Shown here in pieces: positions 23,009 through 56,996 of a stretch of 64,000 nt of DNA. Under the pieces are notes generated by a model, which made no database searches, was not told the DNA's origin, and worked only from the letters and a program-made list of their open reading frames with translations. The number at the start of each line of letters is the position of its first letter. Position 1 is the first letter of the stretch. This stretch comes from Chloroflexota bacterium (GTDB lineage: Bacteria; Chloroflexota; Anaerolineae; Anaerolineales; Villigracilaceae): contig JACAEM010000034.1 in assembly GCA_013388855.1 (NCBI GenBank), positions 186,001 to 250,000 on the forward strand, written 5' to 3'. Made by a program: the position numbers and the translations under genes.

Positions 23009-23667
23009 TTGATCGGCTCGGCTGTATGCAGATAAATCGGGGCAAGCGAGGCTTCATCGTCCACATCGCCCGCCTGCCAGCGTTTCCATGCCAGTTCCGC
23101 CAGCACCGCGGGACGCCTCACCGAGTGCGCGGGCGGCACAAGATGCAGGTTGCTGTTCGTTCCCAATGTTTGACGATCTTCGGACGAGAACTCCCCACAT
23201 ACGAGGGAGGGGGTCTTGACCTCATCCATAATCGTTTCGACAGTGACGACTTGCGCGGGACCCTGAGCCTGCCAGCCGTTTTTTGAACGTTTGTACCAGC
23301 CGAAAGCGAATCGACCGCGCCCGGCCTGAATCGCAACCGCCAGAGGAAGTTTTGATGCCGGTTGTGCGTTTGCCAAAATGTCGAGCGTGGGAATCCCAAC
23401 GACAGGAATGTGCCGCGAGATTGCTAGCCCCTTGACCAGCGCCAGTCCCACGCGCAGACTGGTGAACGAACCCGGTCCCAGCGCCACACCCAGCGCATGG
23501 ATGTCATCCATCGCCGCGCCGCAGCGCGCAAGCAGATCGGCAACTGCGGGAGCCAGTTCCACCGTGTGGCGTTGACTGCTCCGCCAGGCATATTCGCCGA
23601 TGACCTGCGCGCCGTCATACAAAGCCAGCCCAACCTGTGCAGTGGAGGTATCCACAGCCAGTAACAT
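23005..23667 (-). CDS. tsaB: tRNA t6A biosynthesis protein TsaB
   Basis: 220 residues. ASKHA-fold protein with MLLAVDTSTAQVGLALYD, GVALGPGSFTSLRVGLALVKGLA and VVGIPTLDILA. TsaB is the scaffold partner of TsaD and TsaE in forming threonylcarbamoyl-adenosine at tRNA position 37. ATG 23667 overlaps the tsaE stop (TGATG) and is preceded by GGAGGGG; a TTG one codon upstream is less likely. tsaD and tsaC are not in the window. Confidence 0.92.
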   Translation of the reverse strand: MLLAVDTSTAQVGLALYDGAQVIGEYAWRSSQRHTVELAPAVADLLARCGAAMDDIHALGVALGPGSFTSLRVGLALVKGLAISRHIPVVGIPTLDILANAQPASKLPLAVAIQAGRGRFAFGWYKRSKNGWQAQGPAQVVTVETIMDEVKTPSLVCGEFSSEDRQTLGTNSNLHLVPPAHSVRRPAVLAELAWKRWQAGDVDDEASLAPIYLHTAEPIK

Positions 23668-24161
23668 CAATCCCCTCCGAGCGCGTGGCGAATCACGCCC
23701 AGCAGTTCGTCATAACGTTTGCCATGGGACTTGAATTTCATTTCCCGTTCTTCTTCATCGACGTGTTCAAATTTGACCCAAAGGGCCTCGTCGGGGACGA
23801 GTCCGTCGATGCGCTCGGGCCATTCGATGAGGAGGGGGCCCTGGGCAAGCATCATGTCGAGGTCCAATTCCTCAGCCTCGGGCGCGGAGTCGAGCCGGTA
23901 GGCATCCATATGAAAGAGTTGAGCCTGGTCTGCGCGTCGATAGACGTTGACGAGGATAAACGTCGGGCTGGAGACTGAATCGATAGAACCCCAGCCATGG
24001 GCAATACCCTGCACGAATGTCGTCTTGCCTGCGCCGAGGTCACCCTGCAGACAGATCACGTCGCCCGCCTGCAATGCTCCGCCGAGACGAACACCGATAC
24101 GGCGCGTCTGTTCGGGGCTGCGGCTGAAAAAATCCATTGTGTGCGAATCCAAAATGGGCAT
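23667..24161 (-). CDS. tsaE: tRNA t6A biosynthesis ATPase TsaE
   Basis: 164 residues. P-loop GDLGAGKTTFVQGIA at residues 40-54, SPTFILVNVY and LLIEWPERI are hallmarks of TsaE, the ATPase that recycles the TsaB-TsaD complex. It is the first gene of the long minus-strand run leading into the polysaccharide locus. There is no Shine-Dalgarno sequence; a perfect -10 box ends 7 nt before the ATG, so the transcript probably begins at or next to the start codon. Confidence 0.92.
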   Translation of the reverse strand: MPILDSHTMDFFSRSPEQTRRIGVRLGGALQAGDVICLQGDLGAGKTTFVQGIAHGWGSIDSVSSPTFILVNVYRRADQAQLFHMDAYRLDSAPEAEELDLDMMLAQGPLLIEWPERIDGLVPDEALWVKFEHVDEEEREMKFKSHGKRYDELLGVIRHALGGD

Positions 24162-32333: not shown

Positions 32334-33893
32334 TCATTTTCGCCGCGAAGGCTGTTCCAGTTCCCTCAACCATTCCAGCGGTTTTTCCCACCTCTTGCGC
32401 GGGTGGATCGCGAAGAATTTGTCGGGGCGGTCCCATTTCGGTCCCGGCGGGCCGGATTCGTCCTTCAGAATGCTTTTCACTCCCCACAACCCCTTATATT
32501 CCACCCAGGTTTGTTGATCAGAGAGAAGTATCTGCTTCCATGCATGCGACTTCGGCCGTTTCACCTTGCGGTCGGACATGACGCGCTTGAGATAGCTCGT
32601 CGATTTTCCCACCGCTTCGTGTTTATGGTCGCCATTGCATCCGATACGGAAGCCGTCGCCTGTGGCAATCTCCATCGGTAAATTGACGACATAATGATCC
32701 TCTTCGTCGCGCAGATTGGCGAATGATTCCTCGGTCAGTACCGTGGCGGGATGGGTCGCCAGTTCACGCAAGGCAATCTGTCGTTCCTTCTGGCTCGGAT
32801 TGAAGAGCAGGAACAGAAAGTGGAGCAGACCGTCGGTCCAGTACAGGAAGCGCTGGACGAATCCCTCATCGAACAGGTTCGGCGAACGGATCACCTCCGG
32901 CCTGCTGTAGTTGGCATGCGATCCCAGCGCGGCGTACACGATGGGATGGGTGGTCGCATTTCCGTGCTCATCCTTTACAAAGCGTACATTTTTCCACAAT
33001 TCCATCGCGCCGGAGCCGTGCTGGGACATCAGCAATGAGTGTGGTTCGCCGTTTTTCAAGTACACTGCCACCATCTCCCAATCGCCTTCATGATGGTTGA
33101 TACCGTTCGCCGCCAGCCGCCAATCATTGAACGCGTAGAAAAAATGATATTGCAGGATCATCCAATGATTCCCCTGTTCGCCCCGTTCGCGCACGACACG
33201 CCCATAATAAACGGGCTGGCGCGCCTCTTCAGTCATCTCCGCATACTGTGAAAAAGATTTGCGCGCCACCGTCTCGGTCGCGTTCGAAACCATGTCCAAG
33301 ACCAGCCCTGGCGCCTGTGGGACAATATGGTCGAAGATAAATTTCATCGTCCGTACGGAAAGATAAAACAACGCAAGCAGGTAGATTGGAAACAGCACCA
33401 GATATTCCACCTGAACGCTGATGAAAGAGTGGGGCGTGAGGAAGAACCAGATGGGGGCGGCTTCAAGCGCAAGGAAGAACAACGCGGCAAACGCGGCGGG
33501 AAAGAACCGCAGGCGGATTGGCGAAGCCTGGATGAAAATGATGAATGCCGCAATCAACACCAGGATGAGCGCGATTCCGACTCCACTCCAGCCTGATGCA
33601 AACCACCCGGCTCCCAGCGCCAGCCCGGACAGGATCGCCCACCACACCCAAATATCCGAATCGATCAGCGGGTCGTTGACAAAACGCAGGTAATATTCCC
33701 CGCTTCGCAATTTCCCGATCCGTGTTGCAAGCGGCTCGCTCAGGTGCCAGAGCAATTCTGCAACACCCTGAGGCCCGCTGGGAAAGATGTTGCATTTTTC
33801 GAGATATGGCTCGACCGCCATCGGAAAAAACCGCTCGCTTTTTGCGAAGCGCAGGACAGGCTCGTATCGTTTCAGAAGTTCACTGTCATCCAT
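32334..33893 (-). CDS. Membrane protein with a Vps62-like domain
   Basis: 519 residues. Residues 1-80 are soluble; four hydrophobic segments lie at about 82-100, 105-122, 130-152 and 160-182. The C-terminal part has YHFFYAFNDWR (249-259), HHEGDWEMV (267-275) and ALGSHANY (322-329), followed by a tail with a GPPGPKWD-type motif. These match the Vps62/DUF946 domain known from yeast and plants, whose biochemical role is unclear. A fusion with four transmembrane helices is unusual. The ATG has no Shine-Dalgarno sequence; a perfect -10 box ends 7 nt upstream. Confidence 0.75.
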   Translation of the reverse strand: MDDSELLKRYEPVLRFAKSERFFPMAVEPYLEKCNIFPSGPQGVAELLWHLSEPLATRIGKLRSGEYYLRFVNDPLIDSDIWVWWAILSGLALGAGWFASGWSGVGIALILVLIAAFIIFIQASPIRLRFFPAAFAALFFLALEAAPIWFFLTPHSFISVQVEYLVLFPIYLLALFYLSVRTMKFIFDHIVPQAPGLVLDMVSNATETVARKSFSQYAEMTEEARQPVYYGRVVRERGEQGNHWMILQYHFFYAFNDWRLAANGINHHEGDWEMVAVYLKNGEPHSLLMSQHGSGAMELWKNVRFVKDEHGNATTHPIVYAALGSHANYSRPEVIRSPNLFDEGFVQRFLYWTDGLLHFLFLLFNPSQKERQIALRELATHPATVLTEESFANLRDEEDHYVVNLPMEIATGDGFRIGCNGDHKHEAVGKSTSYLKRVMSDRKVKRPKSHAWKQILLSDQQTWVEYKGLWGVKSILKDESGPPGPKWDRPDKFFAIHPRKRWEKPLEWLRELEQPSRRK

Positions 33894-51327: not shown

Positions 51328-52899
51328 TCAGCCGTTCATCCGCTTATAAACGGGAGCCATTTGCTTATAAATCTGCGCGAAAATCCCGAAGCGCTCATTA
51401 TACAATTTGCTGTTCGCAGACTGAGGTTGATACACCCGCCTGATCTCCACCAATTTGGGTACATCATCAAAATTGATTCTTTTCATTCCGACCGCCGCGA
51501 TCCATGCCGCGCCGCGTGCGTTGGCATAGACGGGGTCGGCAACCTGCCGGACTTCCACATTCAATACATCGGCAAAAATTTGACACCACACATCGGATTG
51601 TGCCCCGCCGCCGACGATGTTGATCCTTTTCACGTTTTGCCCCAGGAATCTTTCGACCGGTTTCATCAACCAGCGTGTGTTAAACGCGACCCCTTCCAAA
51701 AAGGCGCGGATGATGTCCTCGCGTGTGTTATGCAAGGATAAGTTATACAGGCCAGCACGGACAGTCTTATCGTCCACGGGCGCGCGCTCACCCCAAATCC
51801 ACGGAGTATAAATCACACCGTTTGCCCCGGCAGGGACGCGCTCTGCGATCTGGTCGAGCACCTTGAAAATATCCGGGACGGCGGCTTCCTGCAACAATTC
51901 ATCCTTGTGATACAGGATGTTGTCACGCAAGTAGGTCAGGTTTCCACCGGCTGTGGCTTGCAACGCAGTCAGCAGATAACGTCCCGGCACGGCGCAAGGA
52001 ACCGAAGCCAGCGAAGCCAGTACATCCGTTTTCTTGAAAGGCACATGCGCCGCCATCCACGAAGACGTTCCGATGTATACATGCGGGGCATAGTCATCCA
52101 CCGCGCCAGAGCCAATCGCCGCCGCCGTGTTATCAATCGAGCCTGCCACCACGCGAACATCCTTCGATAAGCCCAACGCGTCCGCCACCTCCGCTTTGAG
52201 TGTGCCAATCACTTCGGAGCATTTCACAATCTCAGGCAGTTTGGAGGCGTCGAGTCCCAGCGTGGCAATCAACCCATCGTGATAATGAATCGCATCCGGG
52301 TTGCGATTGTCCGTCACCCACGAAGTCAGGATCGAGTCAAAGGTGGCGACAAAACGTCCTGTAAGGCGCAGATTGAGATAATCCAGCACGTTCAAAAATT
52401 TATACGTTTGGGCATAAAGTTCGGGGCGCGTATCCCGAATAAAAAGCATATGACCGGCAGGGTCTTTGCCAGTCATGGACGGCATTCCGCCGGTCAGGCG
52501 CACAAAGCGCAGCACTTTATCAACAGACGCGCCGTCAATGTTGAACAACCCTCCGAGTTGTTTCTTGAGATGAGGTGCGCCGCGCATATCCATCCACAGG
52601 ATGCAATTGCCGAGCGCCTTGCCATCTGGATCAACAGGAACTGTTCCTTCGCCCTGCGTGGAACAACAGATCGCTTCAACGCTTCGACCCGCATCCGGTT
52701 CGCGTTTCAGAAGCCTCCCCGCCGCTGACAGAAACGCCACCCACCATTCATCGGGCGACTGTTCCGCACCGCCGTCAGGCGTGATCAACAATTGGACCGG
52801 TTCCATCTCCCATCCCACAACCTTCCCGCTGACGGTGATCAACGCTGTTTTCATGCCGGAGGTGCCAAGGTCAACCGCAAGGATGAGAGGTTCTGTCAT
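51328..52899 (-). CDS. FGGY-family carbohydrate kinase
   Basis: 523 residues. ASKHA fold: LILAVDLGTSGMKTALI (phosphate-1), CILWMDMRG, GSIDNTAAAIGSGA and the C-terminal FGGY signature region INIVGGGAQSDVWCQIFADVLNVEV. Most like xylulokinase-type members, but the substrate is not evident; xylB proper is at 57035. It is the last gene of the tight operon aldolase-aminotransferase-MFS-kinase (18-29 nt gaps) controlled by the divergent TetR. It probably phosphorylates the sugar or polyol that the aldolase then cleaves. GAGG lies 8 nt before the ATG. Confidence 0.85.
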   Translation of the reverse strand: MTEPLILAVDLGTSGMKTALITVSGKVVGWEMEPVQLLITPDGGAEQSPDEWWVAFLSAAGRLLKREPDAGRSVEAICCSTQGEGTVPVDPDGKALGNCILWMDMRGAPHLKKQLGGLFNIDGASVDKVLRFVRLTGGMPSMTGKDPAGHMLFIRDTRPELYAQTYKFLNVLDYLNLRLTGRFVATFDSILTSWVTDNRNPDAIHYHDGLIATLGLDASKLPEIVKCSEVIGTLKAEVADALGLSKDVRVVAGSIDNTAAAIGSGAVDDYAPHVYIGTSSWMAAHVPFKKTDVLASLASVPCAVPGRYLLTALQATAGGNLTYLRDNILYHKDELLQEAAVPDIFKVLDQIAERVPAGANGVIYTPWIWGERAPVDDKTVRAGLYNLSLHNTREDIIRAFLEGVAFNTRWLMKPVERFLGQNVKRINIVGGGAQSDVWCQIFADVLNVEVRQVADPVYANARGAAWIAAVGMKRINFDDVPKLVEIRRVYQPQSANSKLYNERFGIFAQIYKQMAPVYKRMNG

Positions 52900-52917
52900 T
52901 TAAGAGCCTCTTTTCGT

Positions 52918-54120
52918 TTAGACATGCTGCGGGTCTTTCATCTGGGTGACTAAACCTGCACTAACAATCAAAAGCGCCAATGCTAGGATGAGCGAAGGAG
53001 TGAAGGACCCATCGCTGGACTTCATCGCTTCCATGATGTAGACGAAAACGACTGCACCTTGGCCGAAGAGTTGAATCAAGCCGTTGGAAGTTCCCTCCGG
53101 TGTGGGGCGCGTGATCTCCGCCGCATACTGCATCCCGATGGGCATGGCGCTGACGAGGAAGAATCCCAACAGGACCGCAGAGCCGAACAACACTATGCTG
53201 GAACGGGCAAATGTCAGACCCAGCAAACCGGGAACGGCACCCACGAACGCGAGCATCAGAAAACGCTGACGCTTCTGTTGTTTATCCGAAAGCGACGGCA
53301 GGACAATGGCTCCAATCAACCCACCGACGATCATCAACGCTCCGAGTGTTCCTGCATCGTTCGGCGTAAATCCGCGCGGACGAATGATGGCTTCGACCCA
53401 GGTCGTCACCCCGTTGAAAATTCCCAGTCCGATGAATGATGCGATCAGGTAGAACCAAAACGGTTTGATGGTGAAGGCATGTTTCAAGCCGTCCAACATC
53501 AAGGCACGTGTCTCCTGCCCGGGCGGGCATGGGGGGGTGGGTGGCGCTTCGCGCGCCAGCAGGATGAACAAGACCGATGAGAAAGCGGCGAGGCCACCAA
53601 AAAGCAGTTGCACCTCCGCAATAGACATGCTCTCGACCAGAATCGGAGTCAATACCATGCCCAGGGCTGTGCCGACCAGGTTCGCCAACGTAACCATGCC
53701 CACCATCGTAGCGCGGACATCCACCGGGAACCACTTTGCAGGAACAGTAGTCCATGCGTTGAGCAGGAAGGGCTGGGATATTGCAATGCCAATTGTGCTC
53801 CACAATACGAGGGTGTAGTCGCTCCCGGCAAAGCCGCGCAACAAACCGAAGATGCCCATCAGCGCTGCGCCGATTCCTACTGCGATTCGGAACCCGTAGG
53901 TATCTATCACCCACGAGACTGGGATGGAAAGCGGGATGAACGCAATCATGAAGGTCATCGCAAATAGACCGATTTGCAAGTCACTCACACCGTAAAATTC
54001 CGCCGCGGGTCCCGTGATTGGCGCGTAGGTAATCCACAACATCTGGATGGTCAGGTTGATGAACATGAATACAGTCAAAACCACCCAGCGATACCCATAG
54101 ACTTTGTATTGTTCACTCAT
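52918..54120 (-). CDS. MFS transporter of the TetR-controlled operon
   Basis: 400 residues, twelve helices. VVLTVFMFINLTIQMLWITYAPI opens helix 1; the loop after helix 2 reads SWVIDTYGFRIAVGIGAALMG. The pattern resembles the FLVCR/sugar-alcohol-like group of MFS permeases. The start is ATG 54120, the first before helix 1. Gaps of 19 and 18 nt to its neighbours show it belongs with the aminotransferase and kinase, so it probably imports their substrate. Confidence 0.82.
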   Translation of the reverse strand: MSEQYKVYGYRWVVLTVFMFINLTIQMLWITYAPITGPAAEFYGVSDLQIGLFAMTFMIAFIPLSIPVSWVIDTYGFRIAVGIGAALMGIFGLLRGFAGSDYTLVLWSTIGIAISQPFLLNAWTTVPAKWFPVDVRATMVGMVTLANLVGTALGMVLTPILVESMSIAEVQLLFGGLAAFSSVLFILLAREAPPTPPCPPGQETRALMLDGLKHAFTIKPFWFYLIASFIGLGIFNGVTTWVEAIIRPRGFTPNDAGTLGALMIVGGLIGAIVLPSLSDKQQKRQRFLMLAFVGAVPGLLGLTFARSSIVLFGSAVLLGFFLVSAMPIGMQYAAEITRPTPEGTSNGLIQLFGQGAVVFVYIMEAMKSSDGSFTPSLILALALLIVSAGLVTQMKDPQHV

Positions 54121-54139
54121 ATGGTTTCTCTTTGACGCC

Positions 54140-55591
54140 TCAAGCACCTTCCACGTTTGACAAGACTTCCTCAAATTTTGCCAGCGCATCATCGATCACT
54201 TCATCGGTATCCGCCATGGATGTGTATATGCGTGAGCCGGCCAGCGTGATCAATCCATTTGCCATATATGCCGCGCCCATCTCTTCGATCATGTGTTTGC
54301 GCGACTTGATCTCTTTCAACGTCTTCAGCGGATTCTTCAAATCCAACAGCATCACGCCCGACGTCTCCAAATGGACGATACTGCCCTGATTGTACGCCAC
54401 AAACGGCAGGCTATATTTCTCGATAATGGCTTGCAAGCCCTTCGTCAGACGGTCGCCTGCGCGCCCGGCAATGACTGGCGCATGGGTGCGTTCCATCTCT
54501 TTGAGCGCATAATAGCCCGCCACACATGAAAGCGGATTTGCGGAAAGCGTCCCGCCAATGTAGGCGCGTTCACCCGTCCCGCCGATGCCAGCCGCAAAAG
54601 TCATGATGACATCCCGCCGCCCGCCGACACCGCCCGCCATTGGATAACCGCCGGTCACGCATTTGCCGAAAACGGTCAGGTCAGGCTTGATACCGAAGTA
54701 TCCCTGTGCCCCGCCCATGCCGATGCGGAAGCCCGTCACCACTTCGTCAAAGATCACCAACGCCCCGAACTCATCGCACAACTCCCGCACCTTTTGATTG
54801 AACTCAAACGGCACAGGGCGCGTACCGGATTCCGGACCGAGGGGCTCGACGATCACTGCCGCAGTTCCACCGAGAAAACGATTGGCAATCAACTTGCGGC
54901 GCAGGGCAGAAAGCGCGTTCGGAAAAAATTCCTGTGTGTTGGCAGTCGCACCGCGCGGAATGCCGGTCGCTTCCAAGCGTCCCGTGCCGGGAATGTGCAA
55001 GCCGTAGACCATCGAGTCGCTCCAGCCGTGATACGCACCGCCAACCTTGATAACCTTCTTCTTTTTGGTAAACGTCCGCGCCGCCCGGACTGCCGCCATT
55101 ACACCTTCTGTCCCTGAACCCAACATGCGGAACATTTCCACGGCAGGCATGTAACCATTGATCAACTTTGCCAACTTGAGTTCATATTCATGGAACAGAC
55201 CGGTCACCGGTCCGCACGAGCGGATGACCTCCATGACCTTTTCGCGCACAGGCGCGTAATTGCTCCCCAACACGGTCGGACCGCCCGCCTGCAAAAAGTC
55301 AATGTAACGGTTCCCGTCCACATCCCACAAATATGCGCCTTCTGCTTTCTCAATCGCAATGGGGAATGGATAATTGAACGCCAGATTATGCTGCACACCG
55401 CCGGGGATGTACTTCTTGGCTTCGTCGGTCAATGCCCTGGATTTGACACACTTCCGCTCAAAATATTCCAAATACGTCTTCATCTTTTCGCGGCGCACGG
55501 GGCGTAGCGGCTGTGCCGTCAGCGCCTTCAACTTTTTATAGATGACATCCACATCGTGATATTCTGAAATTGCATATTGCTGTTCGGTCAT
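54140..55591 (-). CDS. Class III aminotransferase, glutamate-1-semialdehyde aminomutase-like
   Basis: 483 residues. PLP fold type I: GSGTEGVMAAVRAARTFT (158-175), GAYHGWSDS (185-193), FDEVVTGFR (281-289) and the PLP lysine Lys310 in LTVFGKCVTGGYPMAGG. It resembles HemL but is about 50 residues longer, with an extra N-terminal segment (1-50), and sits in a catabolic operon without heme genes. It probably transaminates an amino sugar or amino alcohol, or the aldehyde from aldolase cleavage. GAGG precedes the ATG. Confidence 0.82.
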   Translation of the reverse strand: MTEQQYAISEYHDVDVIYKKLKALTAQPLRPVRREKMKTYLEYFERKCVKSRALTDEAKKYIPGGVQHNLAFNYPFPIAIEKAEGAYLWDVDGNRYIDFLQAGGPTVLGSNYAPVREKVMEVIRSCGPVTGLFHEYELKLAKLINGYMPAVEMFRMLGSGTEGVMAAVRAARTFTKKKKVIKVGGAYHGWSDSMVYGLHIPGTGRLEATGIPRGATANTQEFFPNALSALRRKLIANRFLGGTAAVIVEPLGPESGTRPVPFEFNQKVRELCDEFGALVIFDEVVTGFRIGMGGAQGYFGIKPDLTVFGKCVTGGYPMAGGVGGRRDVIMTFAAGIGGTGERAYIGGTLSANPLSCVAGYYALKEMERTHAPVIAGRAGDRLTKGLQAIIEKYSLPFVAYNQGSIVHLETSGVMLLDLKNPLKTLKEIKSRKHMIEEMGAAYMANGLITLAGSRIYTSMADTDEVIDDALAKFEEVLSNVEGA

Positions 55592-55620
55592 GGTTCCTCA
55601 AAAATCGACAATGTAACGCT

Positions 55621-56307
55621 TCATTCCCCACCGATGACTGTTTCACCCACCGCGGCCTTTTTCTGGTCTTTGCGCAGTTTGGCAAACGCCACCTCGCGCA
55701 CCGCCAGCGGAATCTTGCTCACCTTCCGCTCGGAGAGGAGCGCCAGCAGATATGCCAGCGCACACTTTTCCAGAATCTCAACATTATGGACAGCCCGTTC
55801 CATGTCATGTCCGAAGATCAACGCGCCGTGGTTTTGCATCAGGTAGGCGTTGTTATGATTCCGAATGTGTTTGGCAATCGTATTCCTCAACATTCCTGTA
55901 CCGGATGGAGCATACGGGATGATGTCCACACTGCGCCCCAGAAAACGCGCCTGTTCATCGAACAGGGAAGGGATCGGCGCTTTGATCAGCGTCAACGCGC
56001 TGGCATAGACCTGATGCGTATGAATGATGGCATTGACATCTTTGCGCACCTGATAAACGATTCCATGCATACCCGATTCAACCGACGGCTTGAGATGACC
56101 TTCGCGCACGTTCATTTCCAAATCCAAAATACAGACGTCATCCTCGGTCATCTTCATGTAATCGTAGTTGGATGGGGTAATGGCAAAGGCATTCTGCCCC
56201 GACACACGTATTGAGAGGTTTCCCCCGGTTGCCATCAAGAATCCCTTGTGGACCAGGTCCTGGGCGGTCTGCACAATTTGAAGTTTTTCCTTTTGATACT
56301 GGCTCAT
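55621..56307 (-). CDS. Class II aldolase (fuculose/ribulose-phosphate aldolase family)
   Basis: 228 residues. Class II aldolase/adducin fold: TGGNLSIR (28-34), ITPSNYDY, the catalytic Glu77 in PSVESGMH, zinc ligands His96 and His98 in IIHTHQVYASAL and His160 in LMQNHGAL. Members cleave ketose-1-phosphates to DHAP and an aldehyde or epimerise ribulose-5-phosphate. It is the first gene of the TetR-controlled operon. GAGGAG lies 6 nt before the ATG and a consensus promoter (56337-56365) lies 30 nt upstream. Confidence 0.88.
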   Translation of the reverse strand: MSQYQKEKLQIVQTAQDLVHKGFLMATGGNLSIRVSGQNAFAITPSNYDYMKMTEDDVCILDLEMNVREGHLKPSVESGMHGIVYQVRKDVNAIIHTHQVYASALTLIKAPIPSLFDEQARFLGRSVDIIPYAPSGTGMLRNTIAKHIRNHNNAYLMQNHGALIFGHDMERAVHNVEILEKCALAYLLALLSERKVSKIPLAVREVAFAKLRKDQKKAAVGETVIGGE

Positions 56308-56336
56308 CCAGACTCCTCAAACTAGACACTGTAAAG

Positions 56337-56365
56337 ATTATATGATGCAAACTTGACATTGTCAA
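56337..56365 (-). promoter_or_regulatory. Promoter of the aldolase operon
   Basis: On the minus strand TTGACA (56360-56365) and TATAAT (56337-56342) are exactly 17 nt apart, a perfect sigma-70 consensus. The -35 box is the right arm of the palindrome described next. Confidence 0.85.
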
Positions 56366-56369
56366 GTTT
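56349..56369. promoter_or_regulatory. Perfect palindromic operator for the divergent TetR
   Basis: AAACTTGACA (56349-56358), one T, then TGTCAAGTTT (56360-56369): a perfect 10-1-10 palindrome. Its left arm carries the -35 box TTGACA (56353-56358) of tetR on the plus strand, its right arm the -35 box of the aldolase operon on the minus strand. A bound TetR dimer would block both promoters at once. Confidence 0.85.
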
Positions 56370-56379
56370 TCGCTATAAT
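56353..56379 (+). promoter_or_regulatory. Promoter of tetR, leaderless type
   Basis: TTGACA (56353-56358) and TATAAT (56374-56379) with a short 15-nt spacer; the -10 box ends 8 nt before the tetR ATG (56388), so the transcript has almost no leader. Confidence 0.65.
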
Positions 56380-56387
56380 ATTCACCC

Positions 56388-56996
56388 ATGACGACTTCAA
56401 ATTATCATCATGGTGACTTGAAGAATGCGCTGATCAAAGCCGGGGTGAAGATTCTGGCAAAAGAGGGCGTGGGTGGGTTGAGTCTCCGCAAGGTGGCGAA
56501 ACAGGCTGGGGTGAGTCATGCGGCGCCATACTCCCATTTCGCAGACAAGCAGGCGCTCATCGCGGCGATCTCCACCGAAGGATTCAAACAACTCTATATC
56601 CAGATCGAAGAAATACGCGCCGCACACCGGAACAGACCAGAGGCGTTGCTGGTGGAAACCGCCTGGGCGTATATGCAATTTGCATTCAACGAACCAGACC
56701 GATTCAAGTTGATGTTTTCGAGTGTGCTGGAAAAGGAAAAAGAATATCCCGACTTTGTGGAATCCTCAAAGAAAAATTTTGAGCAGATCGTGGAAGTAAT
56801 CGAGGCTTGTCAATCTGTAGGGATATTGCGTTCAGGACCGTCCGACCTGACCACCGTCAGTGTATGGAGCATGGTACACGGACTGGTGATGTTGGCGCTG
56901 GAGGGTCAGATCCCCCATGCCGTGCTAGACCAATATAACTTGAAAGAAATGCTGGTCTTTACACTTAACCAGTTGACAATGGTGGAATTATCATAG
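56388..56996 (+). CDS. TetR/AcrR family repressor
   Basis: 202 residues. N-terminal helix-turn-helix: ALIKAGVKILAKEGVGGLSLRKVAKQAGVSHAAPYSHFADKQALIAAI (about 12-60). The C-terminal ligand-binding domain (EALLVETAWAYMQFAFNEPDRFKLMF) is of the TetR_C_33 type. Divergent from the aldolase operon across 80 bp with a perfect palindromic operator, so it very likely represses that operon and itself until an inducer (a pathway intermediate) binds. Confidence 0.9.
   Translation: MTTSNYHHGDLKNALIKAGVKILAKEGVGGLSLRKVAKQAGVSHAAPYSHFADKQALIAAISTEGFKQLYIQIEEIRAAHRNRPEALLVETAWAYMQFAFNEPDRFKLMFSSVLEKEKEYPDFVESSKKNFEQIVEVIEACQSVGILRSGPSDLTTVSVWSMVHGLVMLALEGQIPHAVLDQYNLKEMLVFTLNQLTMVELS

Follow-up and report, generated by a model that had tools for sequence, protein, structure and literature searches.

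In Tn10 the repressor gene tetR and its target tetA are divergent and share two palindromic operators; according to PMC3037858, binding to tetO1 shuts both genes and binding to tetO2 stops tetA and only lowers tetR, with no indication of cooperativity. In a Tn10-type example (IMG/VR contig L187, whose tetO2 is the sequence printed in PMC11686294) the operators are two 13-mers spanning 43 bp, their centres being 30 bp apart. More generally, PMC3511530 states that TetR-family genes lying less than 200 bp from a divergent neighbour usually repress that neighbour, and its tested examples next to divergent enzyme genes are Streptomyces cases with both in vitro and in vivo work. Regarding transcription starts, PMC3160421 describes leaderless bacterial genes as carrying TANNNT about 12 bp before the start codon, and reports them in 4 of 12 Chloroflexi genomes, with a mean of 4.7%. 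The best solved relative of the family profile used here is the uncharacterised TetR-family structure 3on2 (E 4e-35), whose listing names no DNA or ligand. Among the matches listed in the PMC literature, there is nothing on the operator, the operon or the residue-49 recognition rule described below.

We have analysed a 64,000-nucleotide stretch of a Chloroflexota assembly (contig JACAEM010000034.1, positions 186,001 to 250,000; hereafter the window), from a source genome of 4.03 Mb (G000, contig C19). As in Tn10, a repressor gene and its putative target are divergent, and two palindromic operators, O1 and O2, lie about 30 bp apart between them (O2 being imperfect in the window). The promoter boxes place one operator on both promoters and the other on the target promoter only, a layout which predicts that O1 turns both sides off and that O2 acts mainly on the target. 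The 30-bp distance is likewise that of the Tn10-type operators, and a TTGACA box is common to both first operators, overlapping the edge of tetO1 in the Tn10 type. This distance is partly forced, as O1 sits on the −35 box and O2 right after the −10 box of a promoter with a 17-nt spacer, and therefore equal spacing need not mean contact between dimers. The locus differs from Tn10 in its operator sequence, in a catabolic-looking operon instead of an efflux pump, in the TetR_C_33 C-terminal domain of the repressor, and in having one conserved tetR promoter with a probably leaderless mRNA. It shares with the examples of PMC3511530 the short intergenic region, the enzyme target and the expected autoregulation, whereas those cases come from experiments and the present one from sequence analysis. 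In agreement with PMC3160421, TAnnnT ends 6–7 nt before the tetR ATG, which is 12–13 nt from its first T; unlike that genome survey, here one regulator family has the leaderless geometry in 44 of 78 loci. We regard the locus as very probably a genuine TetR switch, well conserved and of a type already known, the picture drawn in an earlier note on this DNA having to be corrected in four points.

The locus and its gene neighbourhood

The genes considered in the window are the following.

51328–52899, minus strand: FGGY sugar kinase, from family matches
52918–54192, minus strand: MFS transporter, from family matches
54140–55591, minus strand: class III aminotransferase (glutamate-1-semialdehyde aminomutase-like), from family matches
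55621–56307, minus strand: class II aldolase (FucA-like), first gene of the putatively controlled operon, from family matches and conserved neighbourhood
56388–56996, plus strand: tetR, 202 aa, with TetR_N and TetR_C_33 domains; its start codon lies at or next to the expected transcription start (probably leaderless)

The divergent tetR and aldolase genes are separated by 80 bp. The assignment of the regulator to the TetR family comes from matches to PF00440 (41.5 bits, cut-off 24) and PF13305 (49.8 bits, cut-off 26.8), and although 19 named NCBIfam TetR equivalogs (SACE_7040, AcrR, BetI, RutR, FabR and others) gave matches, none reached its curated cut-off, the best scoring 35.0 bits versus 250. 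We name no substrate for the operon, because its enzymes match only generic groups: FucA-like aldolases, glutamate-1-semialdehyde aminomutase-like and D-phenylglycine aminotransferases, and xylulokinase/gluconate-kinase-like kinases. A search against Rfam gave no matches in the window or in the stretches L188, L189, L197 and L003.

For comparison we have used the best 80 of 511 related stretches from a genome scan, with named records (L033–L112) that are labelled mostly Anaerolineales, Anaerolineae or Chloroflexi. The aldolase gene is found upstream of tetR on the opposite strand in 66 of these 80 loci, at most 300 bp away in 60 of the 66, and the 14 loci without it include contigs that end too soon. 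Aminotransferase, MFS and FGGY kinase genes often stand behind the aldolase gene in the relatives; the four-gene operon (window 51328–56307, minus strand) is itself conserved, the aminotransferase being 76–95% identical where it is found in the named loci. One record, labelled Spirochaetaceae (UBA1306; L103), has weaker operator-like sites, the best with 3 mismatches, no aldolase gene was found on its stretch, and it is a case of either transfer or misbinning.

Two probable operators 30 bp apart

The two sites and their positions are given below.

56349–56369: operator O1, AAACTTGACA-T-TGTCAAGTTT; conserved symmetric part 56350–56368; contains the −35 boxes of both promoters
56319–56339: operator O2, an imperfect copy of O1 reading AAACTAGACACTGTAAAGATT, with 7 of its 10 arm positions paired; lies 30 bp from O1, centre to centre, over the expected aldolase transcription start

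The earlier note had described a 21-bp perfect palindrome containing TTGACA in both directions, and this is indeed present as O1, with ten perfect arm pairs around a 1-nt centre. The window contains 3 perfect inverted repeats (arms of at least 10, loop 0–3), whereas its shuffled versions have 0.375 on average, one of the 40 having as many as 3. Clearly, the palindrome is by itself only mildly improbable, and therefore the case rests on conservation. This was analysed in the upstream regions of 78 of 81 loci, L076, L079 and L086 being dropped as they have less than 150 bp upstream. Of the 77 non-window regions, 70 contain a match to the 15-bp core of the window, CTTGACANTGTCAAG, with no more than 2 mismatches, versus 0.08% of 3850 shuffles, and in 47 of them the next-best match has 3 mismatches or fewer. 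Three loci (L080, L082 and L085) have no good site upstream, their best ones having 6–7 mismatches. The view that so clean a design is rare does not hold within this family, in which the design is common: 21 of the 77 other loci have the perfect core, and TTGACA on the aldolase side is present in 44 of the 52 loci of the most common layout. These 52 of 78 loci, window included, hereafter class A, were defined by a site with at most 3 mismatches centred 28–31 nt before the tetR ATG, ignoring −10 boxes; in the other 26 the layout differs.

The symmetry of the site across the 52 aligned loci narrows its extent. Arm complementarity is observed in 42 of 52 loci at ±8, where shuffles average 37.1 and 17 of 2000 attain this count, and in 49 of 52 at ±9, where none of 2000 does so, and drops at ±10 to 24 of 52, below the shuffle mean of 28.7. 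The 21-bp operator, perfect in the window, was thus trimmed to a conserved palindrome of about 19 bp (56350–56368), because position ±10 is not symmetric across the relatives. O1 is most likely the TetR operator.

The degenerate copy O2 has 82% identity to O1 in a 22-nt repeat and 2 mismatches to the 15-bp core, and apart from these two no place in the source genome matches the 21-mer, its centre left free, with 3 mismatches or fewer. Among the relatives 30 bp is the dominant operator spacing, the two best sites being exactly this far apart in 50 of 63 loci (window included; second site with at most 5 mismatches). In 36 of the 52 class A loci, window included, the position of O2, exactly 30 bp upstream, holds a site with no more than 3 mismatches; the mean mismatch there is 4.3 in class A versus 8.6–12.5 at the other offsets between 20 and 45. 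By its position O2 should act on the aldolase side only, and in the window it may be weak, given that it pairs at only 7 of 10 arm positions.

Promoters and the start of tetR

The promoter elements between the two genes are as follows.

56313–56318, minus strand: Shine-Dalgarno-like GAGGAG of the aldolase gene, from the sequence
56337–56342, minus strand: aldolase −10 box TATAAT, with a 17-nt spacer, reaching into the edge of O2; 46 of 52 loci have TAnnnT at this spacing
56360–56365, minus strand: aldolase −35 box TTGACA, from the promoter scan; TTGACA in 44 of 52 loci, a count favoured by the site definition
56353–56358, plus strand: tetR −35 box TTGACA, from the promoter scan
56376–56381, plus strand: conserved tetR −10 box TAATAT, 17-nt spacer, 6 nt before the ATG; 44 of 52 loci have TAnnnT at this spacing
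56374–56379, plus strand: tetR −10 box TATAAT of the earlier note, 15-nt spacer; overlaps the TAATAT box and is not conserved

The promoter scan gave 4 promoter-like sites in 301 bp, versus 0.4 on average in shuffles. The proposed minus-strand promoter, TTGACA-17-TATAAT, matches the consensus at 12 of 12 positions (56365 to 56337). On the plus strand the TATAAT proposed for tetR is indeed placed 15 nt after TTGACA and ends 8 nt before the ATG at 56388; it is not the conserved −10 box, since TAnnnT at 15 nt occurs in 1 of 52 loci (window included), which fits the box of the window itself, versus 44 of 52 at 17 nt. We have thus rejected the 15-nt promoter in favour of the TAATAT box, which scores 10 of 12 in a promoter scan that allows spacers of 16–18 nt only.

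The two −35 boxes are not conserved to the same extent. On the aldolase side the 52 loci have TTGACA in 44 cases and TTGACG in 8, and on the tetR side the box is looser, with TTGACA in 21 of 52; because the definition of the site itself favours TTGACA, these counts are telling only in how the two sides differ. It looks as though a strong operon promoter and a weak tetR promoter had been maintained.

The position of the conserved −10 box bears on the tetR transcript. TAnnnT lies 6 or 7 nt before the tetR ATG in 44 of 78 upstream regions (33 and 11, respectively), whereas any other distance between 0 and 29 is represented by 0–6 regions, and because the box ends so close to the start codon the tetR mRNA is probably leaderless. 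In fact, the window reads TAATAT-N6-ATG, with the −10 box about 12 bp upstream, as expected of a leaderless gene. Within class A, a Shine-Dalgarno match of at least 4 nt precedes tetR in 11 of 52 loci versus 39 of 45 aldolase starts, 45 being the class A loci that had one; the gap between −10 box and ATG in class A was not used as evidence, because the selection itself fixes it at 5–8 nt. Elsewhere in the window two minus-strand frames (32334–33893 and 23667–24161) have TATAAT 7 nt before their ATG and may be leaderless too; among the ATG frames of at least 150 aa in the window, 4 of 51, tetR included, have TAnnnT at 6 or 7 nt.

In 16 of the 26 loci outside class A the arrangement is distinct: a TATAAT or TACAAT box on the tetR strand stands immediately next to the operator, and the operator lies on the tetR start and also carries the −35 box of the aldolase promoter. 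A leaderless tetR is thus not universal, and the switch appears to be built in two ways within one family.

Co-occurrence of site and regulator, and a possible role of residue 49

We have compared the presence of the site, defined as a match to ATCTTGACANTGTCAAGAT at any genomic location with 2 mismatches or fewer, with that of the TetR protein at E at most 1e-20. Among 152 family genomes both are present in 43, the site only in 6, TetR only in 6 (G027, G078, G101, G103, G113 and G152) and neither in 97, corresponding to a Fisher p of 9e-25 that is not corrected for kinship and uses a consensus drawn partly from the same genomes. A reversed control pattern matches 3 of the 152. In 5 of the 6 genomes with the site only (G011, G020, G077, G150 and G164) the site is inside a reading frame, and therefore it is probably there by chance. 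In G120 the operator is kept at the aldolase-aminotransferase-MFS operon (L190, G120:C37:35500-41757, around 3203; aldolase 61% and aminotransferase 83% identical), and that stretch has no tetR match at E 1e-3.

Variation in the protein goes along with variation in the site. In distant relatives (order, class, phylum), palindromes with G instead of C at ±7 are accompanied by arginine at residue 49, which sits in the recognition-helix motif SHxAPYxHF. Over 123 distinct proteins, those with R49 have G in 20 cases, C in none and an undecided base in 3, whereas those with A, S, F or H49 have C in 88, G in none, A in 1 and an undecided base in 7; the TetR of the window has Ser49 and its operator C at ±7. 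Those with N49 have G in 2 cases and A in 1, and the one with Y49 is undecided, so that 11 of the 123 lack a clear base (3 R, 4 A, 2 S, 1 H and 1 Y). The single A49 row with base A (L249) has a second site with C, the picked site being probably the wrong one, and the second TetR copy of L202 has Asn with G or A at ±7. As to the data behind these counts, the helix expression gave no match in 6 of the 80 named loci and 5 of 23 others, L216 was left out of the table, the site listing misparsed L013 and L253, and the first L237 site was spurious. A profile match aligns query residues 13–62 with residues 7–56 of the class A TetR chain 5mru, at equal lengths, which places residue 49 at residue 43 of that chain if there is no gap. 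This position presumably belongs to the DNA-recognition helix of Tn10 TetR.

The association rests on few independent events. On a quick tree built without the helix columns from 80 of the 123 rows (the window, all rows with another residue than A or S, and the A/S rows taken alternately), arginine versus other residues needs 3 changes and the base 5; two pairs of events fall on starred branches, the base following the residue both times, and three on the best tree, with a sign test p of 0.5. We consider it slightly more probable than the opposite that in this TetR subfamily, across several families of the phylum, residue 49 (Ala, Ser, Phe or His versus Arg, with Asn intermediate) sets the base at ±7 (C versus G, and G or A), and that the promoter pair flips between an operator on both −35 boxes with a leaderless tetR and an operator on the −10/+1 region of a leadered one.

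Alternative readings of the sites

A palindrome of this kind could be a by-product of back-to-back consensus −35 boxes read by RNA polymerase only. Indeed, TTGACA-N-TGTCAA, with the boxes 1 nt apart, already gives a 13-bp palindrome, and the 30-bp spacing on the minus strand is the distance that follows from a 17-nt spacer with O1 on the −35 box and O2 right after the −10 box. However, the symmetry extends to ±9, beyond TTGACA, the outer arm of O2 is kept where no promoter box needs it, the base at ±7, which lies outside the hexamer, goes with TetR residue 49, and the sites co-occur with TetR, making this explanation highly improbable. The protein that reads the palindrome could also be another regulator, with the neighbouring TetR acting elsewhere: six family genomes have the site and no TetR, six have TetR and no site within 2 mismatches, and in G120 the operator persists at the aldolase operon although tetR has no match there. 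But most of the site-only cases are those inside reading frames, and residue 49 and base ±7 change together, which leaves little room for a different binder, a very unlikely reading as we see it.

If TetR is the binder, it might still act as an activator or mixed regulator, as some TetR-family proteins do activate, AtrA having activated its divergent neighbour (PMC3511530); this we regard as scarcely credible here, since the sites lie on −35, −10 and +1, where a bound protein is expected to block polymerase. As for the number of working operators, one dimer on O1 might suffice, as the earlier note drew it, and O2 be decayed and silent in this species. The three broken arm pairs of O2 in the window would fit, as would five relatives (L064, L095, L096, L098 and L104) which have a perfect O1 core and a second-best site with 6–7 mismatches. 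On the other hand, O2 lies exactly 30 bp away and has 2 mismatches to the 15-nt core, and of the nearest two named relatives L033 has the same 21 O2 bases and L034 differs at the outermost base only, which renders a silent O2 unlikely.

Further sites in the source genome and in relatives

A regulon search with the 21-bp palindrome, as put forward in the earlier note, returns this locus only, with no other site within 3 mismatches in the source genome; looser matches there are near noise (18 places versus 15 for a reversed control), and no wider regulon was found in this genome. Concerning the relatives, nine stretches with distal sites were inspected (L188–L196), and further distal matches occur in G118, G135 and G148. 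The sites in L191, L192, L193, L195 and L196 are inside open reading frames and look like chance, those in L164 and L173 are also inside reading frames, and that in L194 stands shortly before one.

A distal operator-like site stands in the same context in two genomes belonging to one genus, at position 3442 of L188 (G088:C25:345500-352500) and position 3319 of L189 (G031:C12:8000-15000), with 1 and 2 mismatches, respectively. Read leftwards, both have TTGACA 17 nt before TAAATT and then a strong hairpin, with energies of −37.7 and −33.9 kcal/mol and z values of −3.9 and −2.7, respectively. These are possible real extra operators, and each site with its hairpin may possibly belong to a TetR-controlled small RNA or leader. 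Second TetR copies with their own upstream operator-like sites are found in L202 (G088:C2) and L210 (G135:C30).

Proposed mechanism and implications

The sites, their geometry and conservation, their co-occurrence with TetR and the residue–base association all come from the sequences themselves, and very probably reflect a divergent, two-operator repressor switch that is bound by TetR and would probably be released by a ligand. In the model that we infer, from binding to polymerase competition, a TetR dimer would bind each of two 19-bp operators with centres 30 bp apart. Occupation of O1 would turn off tetR and the aldolase-aminotransferase-MFS-kinase operon together, because O1 covers the −35 boxes of both promoters, and O2, over the −10/+1 region of the operon promoter, would tighten repression of the operon only. 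Thus, the earlier proposal that one dimer shuts both directions and autoregulates agrees with the conserved operator shared by both −35 boxes, from which autoregulation and operon repression are expected, and has to be amended to two copies 30 bp apart. What releases the repressor would be a small molecule, probably one that the operon pathway uses as a substrate or passes through as an intermediate. The tetR mRNA would be leaderless and the operon mRNA would have a leader with a Shine-Dalgarno site. Since the two −35 boxes are 1 bp apart, polymerases should exclude each other, and after induction the perfect 12/12 operon promoter would be expected to outcompete that of tetR.

For Anaerolineae and other Chloroflexota, which are known mainly through metagenome assemblies, these results offer a putative regulator-operator pair whose natural variants are numerous enough to delimit site, spacing and promoter boxes ahead of experiments. 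They add another case of the Tn10 tet layout, including the 30-bp spacing, with a different operator sequence, and the fact that the spacing comes partly from promoter geometry may explain the resemblance among switches of this type. What a specialist might not expect is the proposed residue-49 rule, together with the interchange of two promoter layouts: if the rule is true, operators would be predictable from the protein and orthogonal repressor-operator pairs readable from genomes, and it could help to build such pairs. Finally, the operon under the presumed control of this switch is conserved, and its inducer is a tractable target.
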